DNA of 64,000 nt from Verrucomicrobiia bacterium (GTDB taxonomy: Bacteria; Verrucomicrobiota; Verrucomicrobiia; Verrucomicrobiales; Akkermansiaceae), in NCBI GenBank assembly GCA_947462875.1, contig CANHQJ010000003.1, positions 124,001 through 188,000 of the forward strand. The letters are read 5' to 3'. Under the pieces are notes generated by a model. That model was given only the letters and a program-made list of their open reading frames with translations, did not search any database and was not told the DNA's origin. This document shows positions 4,495 to 52,370 of the stretch, piece after piece. The stretch's first letter is position 1, and every line of letters starts with the position of its first letter. A program made the position numbers and the translations under genes.

Positions 4495-5976
4495 GTGAGC
4501 GCCCATCGCATAAGCCCTAGCACCATGAGTTTGATTACAGTCATTTGGTCGATGATCGCCGCCTCTTCATTGACGCTGGGGTTCGTTCACTTGTTGATCT
4601 GGTGGCAGAACCGGGAAAAGCGGGAACGGCTGTGGTTCTTTATTATGACATTGGGCACCGCATGTCTGGCCTTGAGCGAATTGGCCATGATGAAAGCCCA
4701 AACGCCTGAGGCATTCGGCATCGCACTGCGCTGGCTGCATTTGCCGACGTGGTTGATTTTTGTGGCGATCGTGGGTTTCATTCTCGTCTATTTACGCACG
4801 GGACGCTACTGGCTGGCGTTGGCTGTGATCGGCCTGCGCACGGTGACCTTGGGATTAAATTTTCTGCTCGATCCCAACATCAACTATCGCGAAATCACGG
4901 GCCTGCGCGAGGTCCGCTATCTTGGTGATTCCGCAGCGATGGCGATCGGACGCCCGAATCCGATCATGCTGGTGGCGCAGGTCGCGCTGCTGCTGCTGTT
5001 GATTTTTGTGGTGGATGCGTCTGTTCAGGCATGGCGGCAAGGAGAAAAAAGGCGGGTGCTGCTGACGGGGGGCAGTATCAGTTTTTTTGTCGCGATGGGC
5101 ACGCTCAGCGCCATCCTTTCGCTATGGCAGGTGGTGGAGGTTCCGGTGAGCGCCAGTCTTTTTTTCATGGGGATGATTCTGCTGATGGCCTTCGATCTCA
5201 GCTTGGAAACAAAGCGTGCGGCCATCTTGGAGGTGGAACTGAGAGACACCCAGGAGAGCAAGTACAAGGAGGTGACACACCTCGGCAGGGTGGCGGCACT
5301 GGGCGAGTTATCAGTCTCCCTAGCTCATGAGATGAATCAGCCGCTGGCCATCATTCTCAGCAATGCGCAGGCAGCGCAGAAATTGTTAGAAAATAAAACT
5401 CCCGATCTCGCTGAGGTCGGAGAGATTCTCGGAGAAATCGTGAATGAAAATCTCAGGGCCAGCGAGACGATCAAGCGCATCCGGGCGCTGCTGCAACGGG
5501 GCGAGGTGAGTAGCCAGATCCTTGATCTGAATGAAGTGGTCACCGAGGTCTCTCATTTGATGAAAAACGAAATGGCGCGGCGTCAGGTGAGCTTGAGTCA
5601 TGATCTCGCCCGGCCTCTTCCACACATTTCCGCCGACCGCATCCAGCTCCAACAAGTGCTGCTCAACCTGATGCTGAATGCCTGTGACTCCATGGCAACG
5701 GGGGGCTCGGATACGAGAAAATTGCACGTCACGACCAAGAGCGATGGCGCATCGGTGAGCTTGGAGGTTACTGATAACGGTCAAGGCCTGCCCGCGGATG
5801 TGGAGTCGATTTTCCAGGCATTTTATACGACCAAAGATCAGGGACTCGGCATGGGACTGGCGATTTGCCGCTCCATCATCGCCGCTCACCGTGGCCAGCT
5901 ATGGGCTGAGCCTGCGCGTGCCAGTAGCGGCGCTACTTTCCATGTGGTGCTGCCAGTCAAGGAGGTGAGGTCATGA
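4495..5976 (+). CDS. Membrane sensor histidine kinase, about 493 aa
   Basis: The first 235 residues hold seven or so hydrophobic segments with no recognised extracellular domain. A linker follows, then the dimerisation/phosphoacceptor helix ALGELSVSLAHEMNQPLAII (His278 counted from GTG 4495), the N box QVLLNLMLNACDSM, and ATP-lid motifs DNGQGLP and GLGMGLAICRSI. The E-M-N-Q-P after the His is typical of FixL/NtrB-like kinases. The start is uncertain: GTG 4495 has AAGGTGG 9 bases upstream, while ATG 4525 lacks a clear ribosome site but starts directly on the first span. It overlaps the response regulator by 4 bases, so the two form a two-component pair. The signal sensed is unknown. Confidence 0.9.
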   Translation: MSAHRISPSTMSLITVIWSMIAASSLTLGFVHLLIWWQNREKRERLWFFIMTLGTACLALSELAMMKAQTPEAFGIALRWLHLPTWLIFVAIVGFILVYLRTGRYWLALAVIGLRTVTLGLNFLLDPNINYREITGLREVRYLGDSAAMAIGRPNPIMLVAQVALLLLLIFVVDASVQAWRQGEKRRVLLTGGSISFFVAMGTLSAILSLWQVVEVPVSASLFFMGMILLMAFDLSLETKRAAILEVELRDTQESKYKEVTHLGRVAALGELSVSLAHEMNQPLAIILSNAQAAQKLLENKTPDLAEVGEILGEIVNENLRASETIKRIRALLQRGEVSSQILDLNEVVTEVSHLMKNEMARRQVSLSHDLARPLPHISADRIQLQQVLLNLMLNACDSMATGGSDTRKLHVTTKSDGASVSLEVTDNGQGLPADVESIFQAFYTTKDQGLGMGLAICRSIIAAHRGQLWAEPARASSGATFHVVLPVKEVRS

Positions 5977-45698: not shown

Positions 45699-46004
45699 CT
45701 AACCAACCTGGGCTTTTTCATCCGGCGATCCGGTGCCAGGCACTGGCTTGAGCTTCGGCTTGCGAGGGGAGGGGGAAGTTAGCGCCGACTTTTTATCTAC
45801 GGCAGCCTTGCGCGGCCTTCCTCCTTTGCCAGTTCTATCGGGAGCGTTCAGCATATCGCCAGCAACACCCAAGTAATTACCAATAGCCTGCCGCACAAAA
45901 GCACTGCGGGTTAGCCCGCCGCGCTTCTTGTCAATAGCAGCTAGCAACCTCTCATCTACCGCTACTCCGATGAGCGTTTGTCCTGGTGAACGTGGTTTAG
46001 ACAC
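45699..46004 (-). CDS. Ribbon-helix-helix regulator, probable repressor, 101 aa
   Basis: GTG 46004 is the first plausible start; frames further upstream enter the AT-rich operator. The N-terminal 45 residues match the RHH fold: GQTLIGVAVDERLLAAIDKK as strand plus helix A, then GGLTRSAFVRQAIGNYLGV as helix B. The basic tail has GGRPRKAAVDKK. It is divergent from a second RHH gene across 98 bp with two palindromes, the arrangement of a phage genetic switch. Which of the two is the lysogeny repressor is not known. Confidence 0.6.
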   Translation of the reverse strand: MSKPRSPGQTLIGVAVDERLLAAIDKKRGGLTRSAFVRQAIGNYLGVAGDMLNAPDRTGKGGRPRKAAVDKKSALTSPSPRKPKLKPVPGTGSPDEKAQVG

Positions 46005-46054
46005 ATGAGCCTTATACGGGGCCTCAAAAAAAAATAAAGATTTTTGTTGTAATT

Positions 46055-46093
46055 GAATTAAATTGAATTTAATTCTAATTCGTTCGCACGAAC
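46055..46093. promoter_or_regulatory. Operator candidates of the divergent RHH switch
   Basis: A perfect palindrome with 10-bp arms and one central base spans 46055-46075 (arm GAATTAAATT). A second, GTTCGCACGAAC with 5-bp arms, lies at 46082-46093. Both sit between the two divergent RHH genes in an otherwise AT-rich spacer that also contains likely -10 hexamers. Confidence 0.6.
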
Positions 46094-46102
46094 CAGCACA
46101 AC

Positions 46103-46270
46103 ATGAAAGCAGAAAAAAAACGTTCCAACTCTCCACGCATGAAGCTGATCGGCGTTTGGGTGCCAGACGAAGTGGCGAAGGCATTAGATCAAACCGCCAA
46201 AGCCCGTGACCTGACCAAATCGCAGATCATCCGCAAGGCCATCAAAAACGAAATCAAACAACCCGCCTAA
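46103..46270 (+). CDS. Small ribbon-helix-helix protein, 55 aa
   Basis: A short gene starting at ATG 46103. After a basic start (MKAEKKRSNSPRM), KLIGVWVPDEVAKALDQTAK and ARDLTKSQIIRKAIKNEIKQ form a complete strand-helix-helix RHH domain. It is the first gene of the rightward early operon, like Ner/Cro-type proteins of other transposable phages that act on the early promoter. Confidence 0.65.
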   Translation: MKAEKKRSNSPRMKLIGVWVPDEVAKALDQTAKARDLTKSQIIRKAIKNEIKQPA

Positions 46271-46465: not shown

Positions 46466-46626
46466 AAACCGCCAAACTCAAACCAGACTTCATCCGCACC
46501 GCCCGCGCCTACCGCCGCCACACCGAGCGCATGTTCGCCTACATCTGTGCGGGCAAAAACGACAAGCTACTCCAAGTCCGCCGCAACCGTCTCTACCGCG
46601 CCTACCTAGCCCACCTCGAAGCCTAA
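46462..46626 (+). CDS. Early small basic protein, 54 aa
   Basis: Starts in an ATGA overlap with the preceding gene. Arg/Lys/Tyr-rich helix protein (KLKPDFIRTARAYRRHTERM, LLQVRRNRLYRAYLAHLEA). Probably nucleic-acid binding by charge; no family. Confidence 0.5.
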   Translation: MKTAKLKPDFIRTARAYRRHTERMFAYICAGKNDKLLQVRRNRLYRAYLAHLEA

Positions 46627-46632
46627 CCGATC

Positions 46633-47466
46633 ATGCAAATACCATCCATCATAGACCTGCTCCAGACCGCCAGCGCCCTGCGCGCCCAATGCAAAACACA
46701 CCGCTTTGAAGACCTCATGCGCCAGCTCGATGCCCTCATCGAGCTAGAAGACCGCGATATCCTCATCGCCGGTCTCGACATGATCACCACGGCCTACCAA
46801 TGCCGCCTGGAAAAACTCCTAAGCCAACAATCCGCCCCCATCGAAAAAAACTTCGCGGAGCACGATCTCCACGCCTACCTCCCCTTCAAGCGTGAGAGCA
46901 CCATCAGTCCCAAAGCACAAGCCCTCCTCGATCACATGGAACAGAAGGCAGAGCTCAGCGACTGGCGCACACTCATGGACGGCTTTGTCCAAAGACAAGA
47001 CGCCTTGCATTCCGCGCTCATCCGTTTCGCCGAAAAACGCCGCGCCCACGCGCCCGCTAATTCAACGTCACCTGACTCAGCTCCCACATCGGCGGCACAT
47101 CCGTCAGCCACTAGCATAAATCCAAGCATCAATCGCCTTCTGCTTTGTCGCGTCCTTCTTGCGGACTGCGTGGAAGATCTTGGCCTTCATCCCCATCTAC
47201 TGCAGGCGGGTGAGGCGGTAAGCCAGTTACTCGGAGCGCTTCCCACGTCACCCGCAGGATCTCCACGGACCGGCACCATGTCTCAAACACCATCCGATCC
47301 TTCCGGTGAACCTGATCTGACAAGAATCGGATCTGCCCTTCCATCCCTGTTAGCCGAGCTTCAAGCGCGGCAACACGCTCCCGCAACATCTGTATCTCCT
47401 CCTTTTTCTTCACCCCAACACCCTACCACCTTCGTCAATCCCACTGATGAACGGTTCGATCACTGA
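46633..47466 (+). CDS. Early protein with helical N-terminus and disordered tail, 277 aa
   Basis: Residues 1-145 look like a folded helical protein (MQIPSIIDLLQTASALRAQC, RFEDLMRQLDALIELEDRDI, ALLDHMEQKAELSDWRTLMD). From about 150 onward the sequence is Ser/Pro/Thr-rich and lies antisense to a minus-strand gene at 47129-47413 that looks better as protein. The stop TGA falls at the start of a heptamer array, as at other junctions, which supports translation to 47466. The tail may therefore be real but unconstrained. No function recognised. Confidence 0.5.
   Translation: MQIPSIIDLLQTASALRAQCKTHRFEDLMRQLDALIELEDRDILIAGLDMITTAYQCRLEKLLSQQSAPIEKNFAEHDLHAYLPFKRESTISPKAQALLDHMEQKAELSDWRTLMDGFVQRQDALHSALIRFAEKRRAHAPANSTSPDSAPTSAAHPSATSINPSINRLLLCRVLLADCVEDLGLHPHLLQAGEAVSQLLGALPTSPAGSPRTGTMSQTPSDPSGEPDLTRIGSALPSLLAELQARQHAPATSVSPPFSSPQHPTTFVNPTDERFDH
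47129..47413 (-). CDS. Antisense coiled-coil small protein A, 94 aa
   Basis: GTG 47413 (alternative ATG 47389 with AGGAGGAG 7 bases upstream). It encodes a leucine-heptad helix (MLRERVAALEARLTGMEGQI) followed by RFLSDQVHRKDRMVFETWCR and a Pro/Asp/Glu-rich tail. It is similar to protein B at 48268-48489 in the helix. Within that block identical residues mostly differ at third codon positions on this strand, a mark of coding. A 20-bp element just upstream is shared with B (17 of 20). Confidence 0.5.
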   Translation of the reverse strand: MKKKEEIQMLRERVAALEARLTGMEGQIRFLSDQVHRKDRMVFETWCRSVEILRVTWEALRVTGLPPHPPAVDGDEGQDLPRSPQEGRDKAEGD

Positions 47467-47499
47467 CCCACTGATCACTGATCACTCTCCACTTAAAAC
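47464..47499 (+). repeat. Heptamer array at an early gene junction
   Basis: TGACCCAC (8 bp), then TGATCAC, TGATCAC, TCTCCAC, TTAAAAC, then TTT and ATG 47503. The first TGA is the stop of the preceding gene. Confidence 0.82.
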
Positions 47500-47502
47500 T
47501 TT

Positions 47503-48273
47503 ATGAGCGACCTCATCACCACCATCCCACAAACCGCCATCACCATCCCTGGCATCAATCAGCTCCACCACGCCGCCACCCAGCTCGCGGAGGAAGCCCG
47601 CACCAAGGCCAATGCCGCCACCCAAATGGCGCTCCTCATCGGCCTCAAACTCATCGCCCTCAAAGCCGCCACCCCCCACGGCCAATGGGAAAAACTCTTC
47701 AAGAGTGATGACAAAACCATCCGAAAAGTAAATCGGCCACATGTGAACGATTTGATCGATTTCAGCCTCAGCACAGCGAAACGCTACATCGCCGTATCCA
47801 CCGAGGTCATCAACCGCCGCCTCACCCCAGAGCAGGCGCAGGCATTGCAGCACATCGCCGCCGCCCCCGCCCTGGAGAAAGCAGATGCCGCCCTCCTGGA
47901 AGAAATCACCCCACCCGAGACCCTCCGCCAGCTCTACCTCCAGATGGGCATCGTAAAGCCCACCCGCAAAGAACTCCACGCCATGACCGCCCCCCTCCGC
48001 GAGGAAGAGGGACCGGAAGAGCCCCAGGACAAAACCCCGCTCACCCCCGCCCAGCGCATCGCTCAGAAACGCGATGAAGCCCGCCACTACTGGTTCGGCA
48101 CCACCAACCCCGAGCACGTCGCCCCTGGCTTCATCATGGCCATCCAGCAGGAACTCAATCAGCCAGAGAAAGGCCGCCTCCACTACCTCGCCAAGGAAGA
48201 CCTCCACACCATGGAAGAACTCCTCGCCCAACTCCTCAAACGCATCAAAAAAATCAAAACAGAAATCTCATGA
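47503..48273 (+). CDS. DUF3102-type protein, 256 aa
   Basis: The segment ATQMALLIGLKLIALKAATP HGQWEKLF (residues about 43-70, shown in two parts) and the following NDLIDFSLSTAKRYIAVSTE match DUF3102 proteins of phages and plasmids. Their pattern is iG-x-x-L-x-x-x-K followed by hG-x-W and a helix-turn-helix-like tract. The C-terminus is a Lys-rich coiled coil. Likely a DNA-binding accessory protein of early replication; not proven. Confidence 0.65.
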   Translation: MSDLITTIPQTAITIPGINQLHHAATQLAEEARTKANAATQMALLIGLKLIALKAATPHGQWEKLFKSDDKTIRKVNRPHVNDLIDFSLSTAKRYIAVSTEVINRRLTPEQAQALQHIAAAPALEKADAALLEEITPPETLRQLYLQMGIVKPTRKELHAMTAPLREEEGPEEPQDKTPLTPAQRIAQKRDEARHYWFGTTNPEHVAPGFIMAIQQELNQPEKGRLHYLAKEDLHTMEELLAQLLKRIKKIKTEIS

Positions 48274-48489
48274 ATCCATCCGCATCGCCCACCCCAGCTC
48301 CTCCCGCAGCCCCAGAGCCACCATCTGCTCCGCGAACTTGTCAATGCGTTCGCCCATCCGCCGCGCAGATCCATCAGCGCATTCAGGATTACGACCTTCA
48401 ATACCGTCAAGTTGTGCGCGCAGCTCTAACACGTCTGCTTGCAGCCGCTCCAGCTTCAACAACACCAACACCAGCAGTTCCTTCTCCAT
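48268..48489 (-). CDS. Antisense coiled-coil small protein B, 73 aa
   Basis: ATG 48489, with AGGGTGG a few bases upstream. LKLERLQADVLELRAQLDGI then EGRNPECADGSARRMGERID; the L-x-x-x-V-x-x-L-x-A-x-L-x-G-x-E-G block is shared with protein A. It ends tail to tail with the DUF3102 gene, overlapping it by 6 bp. The competing plus-strand frame is Pro/Ala/Ser-rich. Role unknown. Confidence 0.5.
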   Translation of the reverse strand: MEKELLVLVLLKLERLQADVLELRAQLDGIEGRNPECADGSARRMGERIDKFAEQMVALGLREELGWAMRMDS

Positions 48490-48521
48490 CCGTCCACCCT
48501 ATCACCCCCGTCAACCCATGA
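48270..48521 (+). CDS. Competing plus-strand frame, 83 aa (alternative to protein B)
   Basis: Starts and ends in ATGA overlaps with its plus-strand neighbours, as a coupled gene would. The product is mostly Pro/Ala/Ser/Thr with one helix (QIHQRIQDYDLQYRQVVRAA). Comparison with the related stretch near 47360 shows the plus-strand residues are not conserved while minus-strand residues are, so it is probably a shadow. Kept because the overlaps are hard to dismiss. Confidence 0.25.
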   Translation: MNPSASPTPAPPAAPEPPSAPRTCQCVRPSAAQIHQRIQDYDLQYRQVVRAALTRLLAAAPASTTPTPAVPSPSVHPITPVNP

Positions 48522-48751
48522 ACCCCGCCCTAGAAAAACTCGGCCTTGCCAGTGAACTCCAGGCATCCCAGCTCATCAGCATCTTGGAAAGCATCACAGA
48601 GGTCCTCGCCAAAGCCATCGCCGGTGACGACAGCCCACTCGCCACACATTCCGCAGCACTAGACATCAGCATGGATACCGCCGCCGCGTCAACCCAGCTC
48701 GCCCACATCACAAAGAACCTCCGCAATCCCCCTCAACCCACTGCCCACTAA
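48518..48751 (+). CDS. Early small protein, 77 aa
   Basis: Helical: LEKLGLASELQASQLISILE, SITEVLAKAIAGDDSPLATH, MDTAAASTQLAHITKNLRNP. Stop TAA lies within the next heptamer array. No family recognised. Confidence 0.55.
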   Translation: MNPALEKLGLASELQASQLISILESITEVLAKAIAGDDSPLATHSAALDISMDTAAASTQLAHITKNLRNPPQPTAH

Positions 48752-48770: not shown

Positions 48771-49013
48771 ATGCTCCCACCATCCTACATCCGCGACATG
48801 ATCACCAAGATCCGCATCCTTATCGCGATCAACATCATCATCGCCCTCGCCAGCGCAGGCGTCGGCTTCTGGATGATCTGGGCCATCGTGGTAAAGCCCG
48901 CATGGCCATTCGCCGTGATCCTTCTAATGGCAATGGTAGCCGTAGACGCCGCTCGCTACCAAGCCCTCAACCTCCTACGCCAGCGCAGCTTTTGGCAAAA
49001 ATTACTACCCTGA
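48771..49013 (+). CDS. Small two-span membrane protein, 80 aa
   Basis: Spans at about residues 14-38 (IRILIAINIIIALASAGVGF) and 43-60 (PAWPFAVILLMAMVAVDAAR). Early membrane proteins of transposable phages can be toxic to the host (Mu Kil is an example), but no specific match exists. Stop TGA is the first triplet of the next heptamer array. Confidence 0.55.
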   Translation: MLPPSYIRDMITKIRILIAINIIIALASAGVGFWMIWAIVVKPAWPFAVILLMAMVAVDAARYQALNLLRQRSFWQKLLP

Positions 49014-49045
49014 TCACTGCTCACTGATCACTCGCCACTTTTATT
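49011..49045 (+). repeat. Heptamer array at an early gene junction
   Basis: TGATCAC, TGCTCAC, TGATCAC, TCGCCAC, TTTTATT, then CCC and ATG 49049. The initial TGA is the stop of the membrane-protein gene. Confidence 0.85.
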
Positions 49046-49048
49046 CCC

Positions 49049-49246
49049 ATGTTGTCCGATCTCACACCCGAAGAATTCGCCTACTTCGCCGCCGCGCTCC
49101 ACCTTGCGCAGCAATGCGGAGACGCACCACCCCCAGGAGAGATCAGCTATCGCGAACTCGCAGAGTGGTTCGGCACCACGCCCCAGGACATCAAAAACGA
49201 GGAACTCGCAGCCATCGAAAAACTCCGCAACTTGCTTCACACATGA
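49049..49246 (+). CDS. Small HTH-like protein preceding the transposase, 65 aa
   Basis: LSDLTPEEFAYFAAALHLAQ then ISYRELAEWFGTTPQDIKNE and LAAIEKLRNLL resemble the helix pair of sigma-factor region 4 or a small winged helix. Overlaps the transposase start (ATGA). May help control or assist transposition. Confidence 0.55.
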   Translation: MLSDLTPEEFAYFAAALHLAQQCGDAPPPGEISYRELAEWFGTTPQDIKNEELAAIEKLRNLLHT

Positions 49247-51252
49247 ATCACACACTCACCACCCGCCTCACCTTCGTGCCAAAGGAAGACGCTGCCGCCT
49301 ACGCCCAGCTCTCCGCACCCGTGAAACAAAAAGCAGAAGCCCTCTACGAGATCGCCTGTGAAGTAGCGCGCACACCGCACAAAGAAAAAGGTGCGCTTTA
49401 TGAGGCCCATGCCAAAGCCCTCGGTGTCCATGTCAACACCATCGCCGGTCCCATTCGCCGCTTCCTCAAAACCCGCGACTGGCGCGCCCTCATCGACCGC
49501 CGCATGGAACCATCCCTCTGGCTCACCCGCAACGATAACAAACTCCCTCACGCCTTCATCCAATACTGGAAAACCCTCGTCGAAGCAAACTCCCGCTGCA
49601 CCGCCGCCGCCTACGTCGCCCTCATGGAAAAACTCCACGCCTGGCGCAGAGGCGATATCACCGCCGCTATCGATGGCTACCACACCCCACCGCCTAACGC
49701 ACCAGGCTTCCACCATCCCCACAAATGGTCAGAGCGCACCCTCCGCCGCTTCATGCCCACAGATACCGAGCTTGCCTCCGCCCGCGAAGGCCGCAACGCT
49801 GCCATGAAAACACTCCCCACCATCTTCACCACCCGCAAAGGCGGCCACATCGGCATGGAGTTCCAGTTCGATGACATGTTCCATGACATCGAGTGCGTCC
49901 ACGGCAAAGCCCTCTGCCGCCCCGTCGAATACGGAGCCGTCGAGTTCTACTCCGGATTCTACCTGCCCCCAGGCATCAAGCCACGCATCAAAAAAACCGA
50001 TGCAGAGACAAAGTCAGAACACTGGTCAGACCTAACGGAAAAAGAATTTGCCCTCTACGCCATCAACCTCTTCGCCACCGTCGGCTACAGCCCTCGCGGC
50101 ACCACCGCCCAGGCAGAAAAAGCCAAAGCCGTCTTCCGCGATGCCCTCGGCCAAAAACTCAGCCGCTGGACAAACGGAGCCATCAAGATCGCCAAGCCCG
50201 GCATGAGCGGAGCCTCCGCCTACTCCGGCGGCTGGGCAGAGCGCGCCAAAGGCAACCCCAATGCAAAAGCCCTCAAAGAAGGCATGGGAAAAATCATCCA
50301 CAACCGCCTCGCCGCACTCCCTGGTCAGCTCGGCATGAACCCCGCCACCATGCCCGCAGGCACCCACGGCATGCAGAAAGACACCGAGCTGCTCCTCAAA
50401 CTTAGCGGCATCATCGGCGCACCCATCCCCACCGCCCACCTCAAATGGGAAGACGTCATCCAGCAAATCTACTACGCCTACGATCTCATCAACCGCCGCA
50501 CCGAACACGATATCGAAGGCTACGAAGAAGAAGGCCTCATCATCCCCGAGTTTCATGCAGATCCGCATAACGACTTCTGGATCAACCTCACCGAGCTGGA
50601 TCCCACCCGCCGCGCCGCCATGGAAATCATCCGCCACTCCATGCCACACCTATTCCGCATCCGGCGCATGTCCCCAGCAGAAGTATGGCACCGCGATAGC
50701 GCACAGCTCATCAAGCTCATGCCAGAAGCAGAAGCAGATTGCCTCTACGATCTGAACCGCCGCACAGAAACTGCCAACCACGGCGTCATCTCCTTTCGCG
50801 ATGCAGAACAAGGCCTCGGCACCTTCCGCTACTTCGCCACCTACCAATCTCCTGATGGCTTTCGCCGCACCATCCACAACGGCGATGACATCGATGTCGT
50901 CATCAATCCCTTCCGCCCCGAGCGCGCCTTCTACTACACCCTGCGCGGCCAATACCTCGGCATCGCCCAGCGCGATCACAGCATCACACGCGGCGATGTA
51001 GATGCCCGTAACAAACGCATCGGCCAGCGCGAGGCAGACTATAAAGCCGCCGTCGCCGCCACAGAATACCGCCACGGCCTCCGCAAAGAAAACCACCTCA
51101 ATGCCGCCACCCGCACCCTCCTCGATCACCTGGATGGACTCAAGCCCACCCGCGCCACCTCCGCGCCAGATATCCCCGATCTCTACTCCGGTGCCGATCT
51201 GCCCAGCGAACCAACCAACGCAGACTTACCCGATCCTCACGCTCTCCTCTAA
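49243..51252 (+). CDS. MuA-type DDE transposase, 669 aa
   Basis: ATG 49243 overlaps the upstream stop and is preferred to in-frame GTGs further left. N-terminal winged-helix/HTH parts (KAEALYEIACEVARTPHKEK, YEAHAKALGVHVNTIAGPIR) resemble Mu end-binding domains. The RNase-H-like core opens at GMEFQFDDMFHDIECVHG, carrying the first catalytic Asp. The third acidic residue is probably in AKALKEGMGKIIHNRLAALP, which precedes the family's PGQLG. The second is not obvious (TTAQAEKAKAVFRDAL where most relatives have a D/E-H/N-G motif). A beta-barrel region (HGVISFRDAEQGLGTFRYFA) follows. Acts on the terminal sites with MuB. Confidence 0.88.
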   Translation: MNHTLTTRLTFVPKEDAAAYAQLSAPVKQKAEALYEIACEVARTPHKEKGALYEAHAKALGVHVNTIAGPIRRFLKTRDWRALIDRRMEPSLWLTRNDNKLPHAFIQYWKTLVEANSRCTAAAYVALMEKLHAWRRGDITAAIDGYHTPPPNAPGFHHPHKWSERTLRRFMPTDTELASAREGRNAAMKTLPTIFTTRKGGHIGMEFQFDDMFHDIECVHGKALCRPVEYGAVEFYSGFYLPPGIKPRIKKTDAETKSEHWSDLTEKEFALYAINLFATVGYSPRGTTAQAEKAKAVFRDALGQKLSRWTNGAIKIAKPGMSGASAYSGGWAERAKGNPNAKALKEGMGKIIHNRLAALPGQLGMNPATMPAGTHGMQKDTELLLKLSGIIGAPIPTAHLKWEDVIQQIYYAYDLINRRTEHDIEGYEEEGLIIPEFHADPHNDFWINLTELDPTRRAAMEIIRHSMPHLFRIRRMSPAEVWHRDSAQLIKLMPEAEADCLYDLNRRTETANHGVISFRDAEQGLGTFRYFATYQSPDGFRRTIHNGDDIDVVINPFRPERAFYYTLRGQYLGIAQRDHSITRGDVDARNKRIGQREADYKAAVAATEYRHGLRKENHLNAATRTLLDHLDGLKPTRATSAPDIPDLYSGADLPSEPTNADLPDPHALL

Positions 51253-51260
51253 CAACAACC

Positions 51261-52370
51261 ATGCAACCATCCCTACCAAAACAAGCCATGTCCACCACCC
51301 ATCCCTGGAACATCACCCTGCCCGCACTCAAAGAGCGCATCTGCCACTGCGATCCCACCAACCAGAAACTCCTGGAAGCCGCCTGGCGTCTCAGCGGCGA
51401 GCGCGGCCTCTCCATCGCAGAGTTTGCAGACAGCGCAGGCATCAGCTCCAGCACCCTATCTAAAATCATCGCAGGCACCTACGTCAATCCGCGTAACACC
51501 AGCGAACGCTACGATCTGCCCGCCAACATCAGCGAGACACTCCACAGCTGGCAAACCGGCATCATCGAGCGCATGCCCACCAACGTCACCTTCGTCTCCA
51601 CAGACACCAGCCGCAAAGTCAACTTCAACTGCGATCTCGCCCGCGAGTCCCGCACACCCGTCTTCATGCAAGGTGCCAGCCACATCGGTAAAACCACAGC
51701 CCTGGAAAAATACGCCGATGCCAATCCCCACAACACCTACCTCATCACTGTCACCGCAGGCATGGGAGCCAAAGGCCTCGCCATCGCCATCGCAGAGGCC
51801 ATGGACATCGCCACCAACGGCAGCGTGGATGCGCTCACCCGCCGCCTTCGCAAAGAACTCACCCGCGACAAACTCCTCATCCTGGATGACTTCCACGTCC
51901 TAACACTATCCGCCACCCCACGCGGCTTCCTCAAATGCATGGAGCTGCTCCGCGCCCTCTACGATGCAGACAAATGCGGCATGCTCTTCAGCACCACCGA
52001 TATCGACTTCGGCCGCATCAGCAAAGAATACAAAAACGCCCTGCACCAGCTCCTACGTCGCGGCATCCACCGCCCCCACCTCGGCCTCGCACCGCTCAAG
52101 AAAGACGTCAAGGCCATCCTCGCCGCTCACGGCCTGCCATGGCCCGCCAAAACCCTCCAGTGCGAAGCCTACGGCCAAACCTATCGCCCCGCCACCATCC
52201 TCCAAGACCTCGCCAAACAAGCCGGTCTCAAATCCATCACCGAGCGTCTCCGCTACGCCCTCAAGCTCGCAGCGCGGAACACCGAGTCCATCACCTGGCA
52301 CCACCTTTGCCAGGCACAAGCCCTCGTCGCCTCAAACGACTCCATCCCCACCGACGACTGGAATGACTAA
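51261..52370 (+). CDS. MuB-type transposition ATPase, 369 aa
   Basis: N-terminal lambda-repressor-like HTH (GLSIAEFADSAGISSSTLSK) followed by an AAA+ ATPase: Walker A GASHIGKTT near residue 137, Walker B KLLILDDFHVL, and a sensor-like CGMLFSTTDIDF. The order is that of Mu B, which binds ATP and target DNA, delivers target to MuA and gives target immunity. Starts 8 bp after the transposase stop (alternative ATG 51288). Overlaps the next gene by 8 bp. Confidence 0.88.
   Translation: MQPSLPKQAMSTTHPWNITLPALKERICHCDPTNQKLLEAAWRLSGERGLSIAEFADSAGISSSTLSKIIAGTYVNPRNTSERYDLPANISETLHSWQTGIIERMPTNVTFVSTDTSRKVNFNCDLARESRTPVFMQGASHIGKTTALEKYADANPHNTYLITVTAGMGAKGLAIAIAEAMDIATNGSVDALTRRLRKELTRDKLLILDDFHVLTLSATPRGFLKCMELLRALYDADKCGMLFSTTDIDFGRISKEYKNALHQLLRRGIHRPHLGLAPLKKDVKAILAAHGLPWPAKTLQCEAYGQTYRPATILQDLAKQAGLKSITERLRYALKLAARNTESITWHHLCQAQALVASNDSIPTDDWND

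Follow-up and report, generated by a model that had tools for sequence, protein, structure and literature searches.

The closest precedent for the arrangement described here is the olg1/olg2 and gene 10 locus of the Pseudomonas phage Fc02. In the passages of the report that were available to us (PMC9936078), superinfection exclusion is conferred both by olg1, on the lysogeny strand, and by the early gene 10, which it overlaps. The antisense embedding of one open reading frame (ORF) in another is also described for E. coli O157:H7, for example for the gene pop (excerpts of PMC7103648 and PMC9927249). Furthermore, prophages can carry morons which, in the sections of PMC7067206 at our disposal, are extra genes between phage genes, with their own promoter-like element and a variable content. 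Here, we analyse a stretch of 64,000 nucleotides, called the window from here on, of a Verrucomicrobiia bacterium from the family Akkermansiaceae (contig CANHQJ010000003.1, positions 124,001 to 188,000, in our numbering G000:C3:124001-188000; the assembly of this genome has 3.95 Mb). At about 46-52 kb, the window contains the early operon of a Mu-like prophage, in which small early genes precede a MuA-type transposase that is followed by a MuB-type ATPase. An original prediction had placed two minus-strand genes, which we call A and B, antisense within this operon, each behind a similar element:

47129..47413, minus strand: antisense gene A, 94 amino acids (aa), GTG start
48268..48489, minus strand: antisense gene B, 73 aa, ATG start, three helices predicted
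47419..47438, minus strand: element before A, TTGACGAAGGTGGTAGGGTG, which ends 5 nt ahead of the start codon
48495..48514, minus strand: element before B, TTGACGGGGGTGATAGGGTG, which ends 5 nt ahead of the start codon

Both ORFs are indeed found at these positions, and the 20-bp elements agree in 17 of 20 bases and keep the same gap of 5 nt before both starts, as had been claimed. We think that these minus-strand genes are probably real. In our preferred reading, to which we give a probability of about 0.55 as a whole, they are accessory genes that face the operon, and the sense frame across them has been selected to stay open for the ribosomes of the operon.

The likeness to Fc02, a Mu-like (B3-type) phage in which lysogeny-strand genes overlap an early lytic operon gene on the other strand, is one of arrangement. 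While the passages on Fc02 describe one locus beside the repressor, here we see several cassettes in different slots of the operon, which have a promoter-like element in common and, statistically, signs of a sense frame that is selected to be open. The comparison with the morons of PMC7067206, as far as the consulted part describes them, is drawn from sequence alone, and it differs in that our genes lie inside the early operon, are read against it and have a sense frame that is kept open. Compared with pop, as presented in the excerpts, the roles are exchanged: here the antisense frame is better supported as a protein gene and it is the sense frame which is doubtful. Antisense overlapping and moron-like phage genes are thus already known as a kind, and what we describe is a repeated arrangement of them with signs of selection on both strands. 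We found no reports of the element or of the antisense genes in verrucomicrobial phages in the open literature.

The MuA of the window was matched in four of 57 genomes (its own, G006, G009 and G021), and four loci were compared: the window; L009, with a MuA that is 74-76% identical to that of the window; L030, a contig of 5580 bases (G009:C128) with a MuA identity of 49% and a TGA within the MuA match; and L031 (G006:C15), a more distant phage on the opposite strand with a MuA identity of 28%. The early operons of these four Mu-like loci contain eight antisense ORFs of 73-135 aa, namely A and B in the window, C in L009, D and E in L030, and F, G and H in L031. All eight are oriented against the early operon and, judging by a reading of the ORF lists, they occupy at least five different early-gene slots. 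Relatives were also sought via MuB and MuA in viral contigs and via MuA in phage records, and none were found. A search of viral contigs with the DUF3102-like protein encoded between A and B gave one contig (L081), which does not have the element, and nine stretches from prophages of the same family (genus g3), each with a remote relative of DUF3102, also lack it.

In each of the eight cases the element lies 25 or 26 nt before the start codon; its full core is present in seven of the genes and is weaker in H. The layout can be written as TTGAC-N4-GTGNTAGNNT-N6/7-RTG, in which a TGN-TANNNT box precedes the start codon by 12-13 nt. A -10 type hexamer, TAGNNT, stands 12-13 nt before the start in seven of the eight genes, and H has TATGCT. 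Based on its sequence, we read the element as a putative leaderless promoter of the extended -10 type.

The bare 16-nt motif is not enriched, with 15 matches in the 10 genomes of the genus as compared to 19 for the reversed control. We therefore dropped it as evidence and used the motif together with the start codon instead. Since the core matches alone are no commoner than the control, the strength of the element is in its position and not in its count. Seven of the 15 core matches are located in the four phage early operons, and all of these are antisense, with an RTG at +25/26 that opens an ORF of at least 73 aa (73-135). On the other hand, none of the other eight has a start at that spacing that opens an ORF of at least 40 aa. 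In the genome of the window, the core has two matches, exactly at A and B, and the reversed control has one. When the start codon is included in the pattern, 17 matches are found in 386 genomes of the order, compared to 2 for the reversed control. Ten of the 17 are outside these phages, in other genera, and nine of these ten open ORFs of 82-501 aa; two of the nine ORFs are cut by the end of the locus, and as there are three homologous pairs among them, they represent six distinct genes. A slightly different pattern gave 19 matches against 1 in the control (12 genomes, namely the own genome and 11 picked for earlier matches). The looser pattern TTGAC-N8-TANNNT-N6/7-ATG was rejected as too loose (20 matches against 16), although H emerged from it; since this pattern already contains the ATG, H is not an independent case. 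In IMG/VR contigs the element was found in 24 stretches which, by reading, are mostly within genes or before very short ORFs, and which are not informative.

Leaderless starts do occur in this phylum, since in the parts of the Akkermansia Cappable-seq study available to us (PMC4782308) about 10% of the mapped start sites are at start codons. The passages on Akkermansia report a -10 and -35 bias and make no mention of a TTGAC at -25, such as we see here. In our own scan of the host (first ATG, 351 ORFs, 520 kb), there was a weak rise of TANNNT 12-15 nt upstream, and both a Shine-Dalgarno peak and a TTGAC peak at -25 were absent. Two observations concern the element in other places. First, two species (loci L042 and L043, in G295 and G251) have it together with a GTG start before what is apparently the same tRNA-dihydrouridine synthase gene; that the element is shared although the upstream flanks differ suggests that leaderless promoters of this type are general in the order. 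Second, in L078 (G210:C22:13001-25000) three elements of the same kind precede small ORFs, at 5369 (plus), 5839 (minus) and 6134 (minus). Two of the small ORFs behind them look like membrane proteins and an integrase-like ORF is not far, so that the elements may represent this promoter class in a different mobile element.

One could also imagine that the element drives a regulatory antisense RNA which represses the early operon, and that the ORFs are incidental. The orientation of all eight genes against the operon would suit such an RNA. However, it would require neither a start codon at a fixed distance from the element nor the protein similarity with third-position divergence that we see between D and G, and we consider this explanation very improbable.

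Next, we turn to the strand opposite to the antisense genes, where the following features are found in the window:

46633..47466, plus strand: ORF P0001, of which 46633-47058 is gene-like (GC content at codon positions 1/2/3 of 0.65/0.37/0.71) and which continues in frame over the whole of A
46624..46635, plus strand: junction TAACCGATCATG, made of the stop of the previous gene and the start of P0001, in a form common to the plus ORFs across C, D and F
48270..48521, plus strand: ORF P0004, which spans all of B and has an ATGA overlap with the preceding and with the following gene

The original prediction had regarded the neat junctions of these overlapping plus frames as a conflict. According to our results the plus frames can be regarded neither as mere artefacts nor as genes of the usual kind, and they are kept free of stops to a degree for which the minus genes do not account. 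In all eight cases, the plus frame whose codon position 1 faces the antisense position 1 is open over 91-100% of the antisense gene. By reading, at A, E and H this frame is an in-frame continuation of an upstream operon gene, and the same is probably true of D (weak similarity between P0001 and D, E 0.008). B, C and F have a separate ORF that begins at or just after the preceding stop, and the open frame of G is an ORF located at the operon's left end. The plus ORFs at A, C, D and F have in common a start of the form TAAC(A/C)GA-N2-ATG; in 520 kb of host DNA, this pattern (with N2-3) was found two times.

To quantify the openness, the codon order of the eight genes was shuffled. The sense frame has 3 stops where the shuffles gave 26.3 (ratio 0.11), while the corresponding ratio is 0.89 for 291 host genes and 1.22 for 13 other phage genes; another antisense frame has 20 stops compared to 19.8 expected. 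In a stricter test, the minus proteins and their codon counts were fixed exactly and the synonymous codons alone were permuted. Here, too, the 3 stops compare with 17.0 expected for the eight genes. For the six genes that the original prediction had not seen, the values are 3 and 15.6, and for A, C, F, G and H only, 2 and 13.7; in each of the three comparisons 0 of 5000 permutations reached the observed value. The host genes have a ratio of 0.92 in this test, and another antisense frame is not depleted (20 compared to 22.3). The three sense-frame stops (in C, D and H) are located 16-25 nt from the antisense start. We also considered that the open plus frame might be a mechanical by-product of codon composition, and rejected this on the basis of the shuffle, permutation and frame-similarity tests.

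These results bear on a simpler explanation, in which A to H are ordinary morons with their own promoter and the open sense frames are due to coincidence or to a codon-pair bias. Such genes might well have the GC content that we observe (0.50-0.58, which is at or below that of the plus genes of the window itself, about 0.56-0.60), vary in their slots and yield no relatives in searches, as we found for the D/F/G family, and for B in phage records. However, the depletion of stops in one frame only (0 of 5000), which is absent in host genes and in other phage genes, strongly disfavours this explanation and makes it improbable in our view.

The reverse test, in which the openness of the minus frames is compared with shuffles of the plus codons, is a weak one, because ORFs are free of stops by definition and only their length is evidence. 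The minus ORFs cover lengths in which these shuffles place 31.1 stops, where about one for each ORF would be expected for chance ORFs. This length, the fixed spacing between element and start, and the fact that diverged pairs are alike in the minus frame are all difficult to explain if the plus frames alone are genes (small early proteins, several of which end in or near ...TPVNP) and the antisense ORFs are their by-products. The ATGA on both sides of P0004, the start TAAC(A/C)GA-N2-ATG common to four plus ORFs and the plus-frame similarity of B and E are what one would expect in that case, but overall we find it hardly credible.

The antisense proteins can be assigned to families, one of which comprises B, E and H, and a second one D, F and G. 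Of 400 shuffles, 1 and 0 reached the score of B against E and H, respectively, 0 that of E-H, 0 that of D-G and 2 that of D-F. When the minus frame is compared with the overlapping open plus frame, the z scores are 11.0 and -1.8 for D-G, 7.5 and 0.4 for E-H, and 5.9 and 0.1 for B-H. For D-G, nucleotide identity at the three minus codon positions is 0.44/0.53/0.27. The original prediction had named conservation along the plus frames in relatives as a result that would speak against it. We see this in B-E only (a score of 92, as compared to 50 in the minus frame), while D-G, E-H and B-H follow the minus frame.

The composition of the codons can be compared as well. In seven of the eight genes the GC content is lowest at minus position 2, as it is in host genes (0.63/0.43/0.71; 62 training ORFs). 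The open plus frame, unlike the other genes here, has its minimum at codon position 3 in seven of eight cases, H being the exception. For example, the minus frame of A has 0.72/0.43/0.56 at positions 1/2/3 and its open plus frame 0.71/0.56/0.43; at B, the two frames have 0.73/0.36/0.67 and 0.73/0.67/0.36, respectively. Codon log-odds, too, are higher in the minus frame than in the open plus frame in seven of the eight genes (not in H). Apart from H, the plus frames do not have a gene-like codon profile, and clear protein conservation is found in B-E only. Both strands are constrained, the minus strand by protein similarity and the plus strand by openness. On the whole, the antisense frames are mostly the better-supported protein genes, and the overlapping plus frames are doubtful ones.

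An alternative is that both strands encode functional proteins, one for lysogeny and the sense protein for early lysis, and that the sense frame is open since its protein matters. The constraint on the sense frame in both the shuffle and the permutation test agrees with this, as do the plus-frame similarity of B-E (score 92, z 8.1-8.5) and the fact that olg1 and gene 10 of Fc02 are both active. On the other hand, for D-G, E-H and B-H it is the minus frame that shows similarity and the open plus frame shows none, and the GC minimum at codon position 3 in seven of the eight plus frames is not what other genes here look like. We therefore regard two proteins as a possible but unlikely explanation.

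In the original prediction, A and B were described as related to each other through a common helix block. This block (LRERVAALEARLTGMEGQ in A and LQADVLELRAQLDGIEGR in B) is real, with 8 of 18 residues identical and with 6 of the 7 nucleotide differences inside identical codons at third positions. Its significance is marginal: the ungapped score of 39 was matched by 19 of 2000 shuffles (about 1%). The Smith-Waterman score of A and B was reached in 8 of 400 shuffles, and BLASTP gives E = 0.65. The sequences thus suggest a weak relationship at best, and what speaks for A and B as genes is rather the spacing of element and start, the recurrence in relatives and the similarity in minus frames. B resembles E and H of other prophages, which appear from sequence to be its clear relatives; for A, there is no clear homologue. 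No match of A, B or their relatives to Pfam, PHROGs or PADLOC was better than E 0.02. A search with the B/E/H alignment in the 10 genomes of the genus returned, besides B, E and H themselves, a single weak match (E 0.08). No further members of the D/F/G family were found in the 386 genomes, and none in viral contigs; D and B have no relatives in phage records. In the predicted structures, B has three helices (predicted local distance difference test, pLDDT, 86) and D is all-helical (pLDDT 74), and neither the D model (PDB, viral structures) nor the B model (PDB) has a significant structural match.

For B, it can be seen how such a gene is placed between its neighbours, which are the following:

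47503..48273, plus strand: DUF3102-like early gene P0005 (E 3.6e-4, a match that does not reach the curated cut-off)
48518..48751, plus strand: early gene P0008, which in L009 is joined straight to the DUF3102-like gene, without B

A single ATGA joins the DUF3102-like gene to the homologue of P0008 in L009. Exactly at this junction, the window has about 248 bp with B and its element, and an ATGA on each side. An extra gene between genes that are adjacent in a relative, as in a moron, is therefore found for B only; for A, we found no empty site. An observation of a similar kind comes from L030, where what is apparently the C-terminal end of a ribbon-helix-helix gene (FIKQPA, 2335-2380) stands alone between E and the next plus ORF and reads as a trace of rearrangement around the inserts.

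We propose that A and B are moron-like accessory genes that face the early lytic operon of the prophage. The promoter-like element of each gene would set the start of the RNA at or next to the start codon, so that the transcript would be leaderless, and expression would be independent of the lytic transcript and would most likely take place in the lysogen. Because each antisense gene sits inside an operon, the sense strand would be under selection as well. One phase-fixed frame would be kept free of stops, either as an extension of the upstream gene or as a small separate ORF, and this open frame would let the ribosomes of the early operon cross the antisense gene. The reason may be that translation stays coupled, and that Rho is kept from terminating at a C-rich untranslated stretch. 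In the consulted passages on the E. coli gal operon (PMC9239205), an untranslated next gene at a cistron junction leads to Rho termination; this differs from our case in that the organism is E. coli and that no antisense gene is present there. In the eight genes, the plus strand has a C content of 0.27-0.41 and a G content of 0.18-0.23, and a Rho RNA-binding domain is found at two loci of the host genome. We tentatively call such a sense frame a 'ribosome corridor', that is, a frame across an insert which is selected to be open, in a phase that is fixed with respect to the antisense codons, and hardly for the sake of a protein, and which spares lytic transcription from Rho; that it exists in this form is possible, but we would not count on it. 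As to the role of the antisense proteins, superinfection exclusion is our best guess by analogy, made because of the Fc02 precedent only.

Several points weigh against accessory genes crossed by a selected-open frame. Taken singly, A and B show no significant depletion of stops (P 0.26 and 0.66, with 1.06 and 0.37 stops expected). For the genes B and E, the DNA of which is 60% alike over 215 nt, the plus frame scores higher (92, z 8.1-8.5) than the minus one (50), and conservation across the minus codons peaks at the third positions (0.62, with 0.33 expected from composition); a plus-strand protein would account for this at least equally well. A weak similarity of D-G and D-F is also seen in the other, non-open plus frame p1 (z 2.6 and 2.8). 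By codon log-odds, the minus frame ranks first among all six in B, D and F only; in A, C, E, G and H it is beaten by a frame with several stops. The gene H has both a weaker element and no gene-like GC profile, and A is without a clear homologue. Furthermore, TTGAC at -25 is not a feature of the host, and the core matches in the own genome are restricted to A and B. Finally, in the part of PMC13323073 available to us it is argued that bacteria with runaway transcription owe their protection from Rho to purine content rather than to translation; if this is valid here, the Rho-based reason becomes weaker.

The remaining features of the region concern its regulation and the transposition genes:

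49114..51252, plus strand: MuA-like transposase ORF (phrog_310, E 3.3e-14), the true start of which is probably further in
51261..52370, plus strand: MuB-like transposition ATPase (phrog_296, E 1.4e-33; AAA_22, E 9.2e-14)

At the left end of the operon there is a divergent ribbon-helix-helix-like pair (45699-46184, minus strand, and 46103-46270, plus strand), by reading a likely repressor or regulator. Between 31746 and 52584 of the window, intergenic short arrays of TGATCACT-like 7-mers (TGATCACTGATCACT, TGCTCACTGATCACT) are found, for example at 47472-47486 and 49011-49032, with 15 matches, some of which overlap, compared to 0.08 expected. Stretches similar to these arrays are also present elsewhere in the genome, and upstream of some elements.

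In summary, the four loci provide eight comparable cases of a near-full overlap on opposite strands, in which a clean statistical signal of sense openness is found at the synonymous sites of the antisense gene. They also lead to a proposal, open to testing, of how a phage operon can accommodate accessory genes in antisense orientation. For the annotation of such regions they are a warning: gene callers that settle on one strand may pick the wrong one, and an ORF may be selected to be open without its protein being of importance. If the 'ribosome corridor' is true, it would constitute a constraint on coding that falls under neither genes nor non-coding DNA, and it would let temperate phages place genes against their lytic operon.

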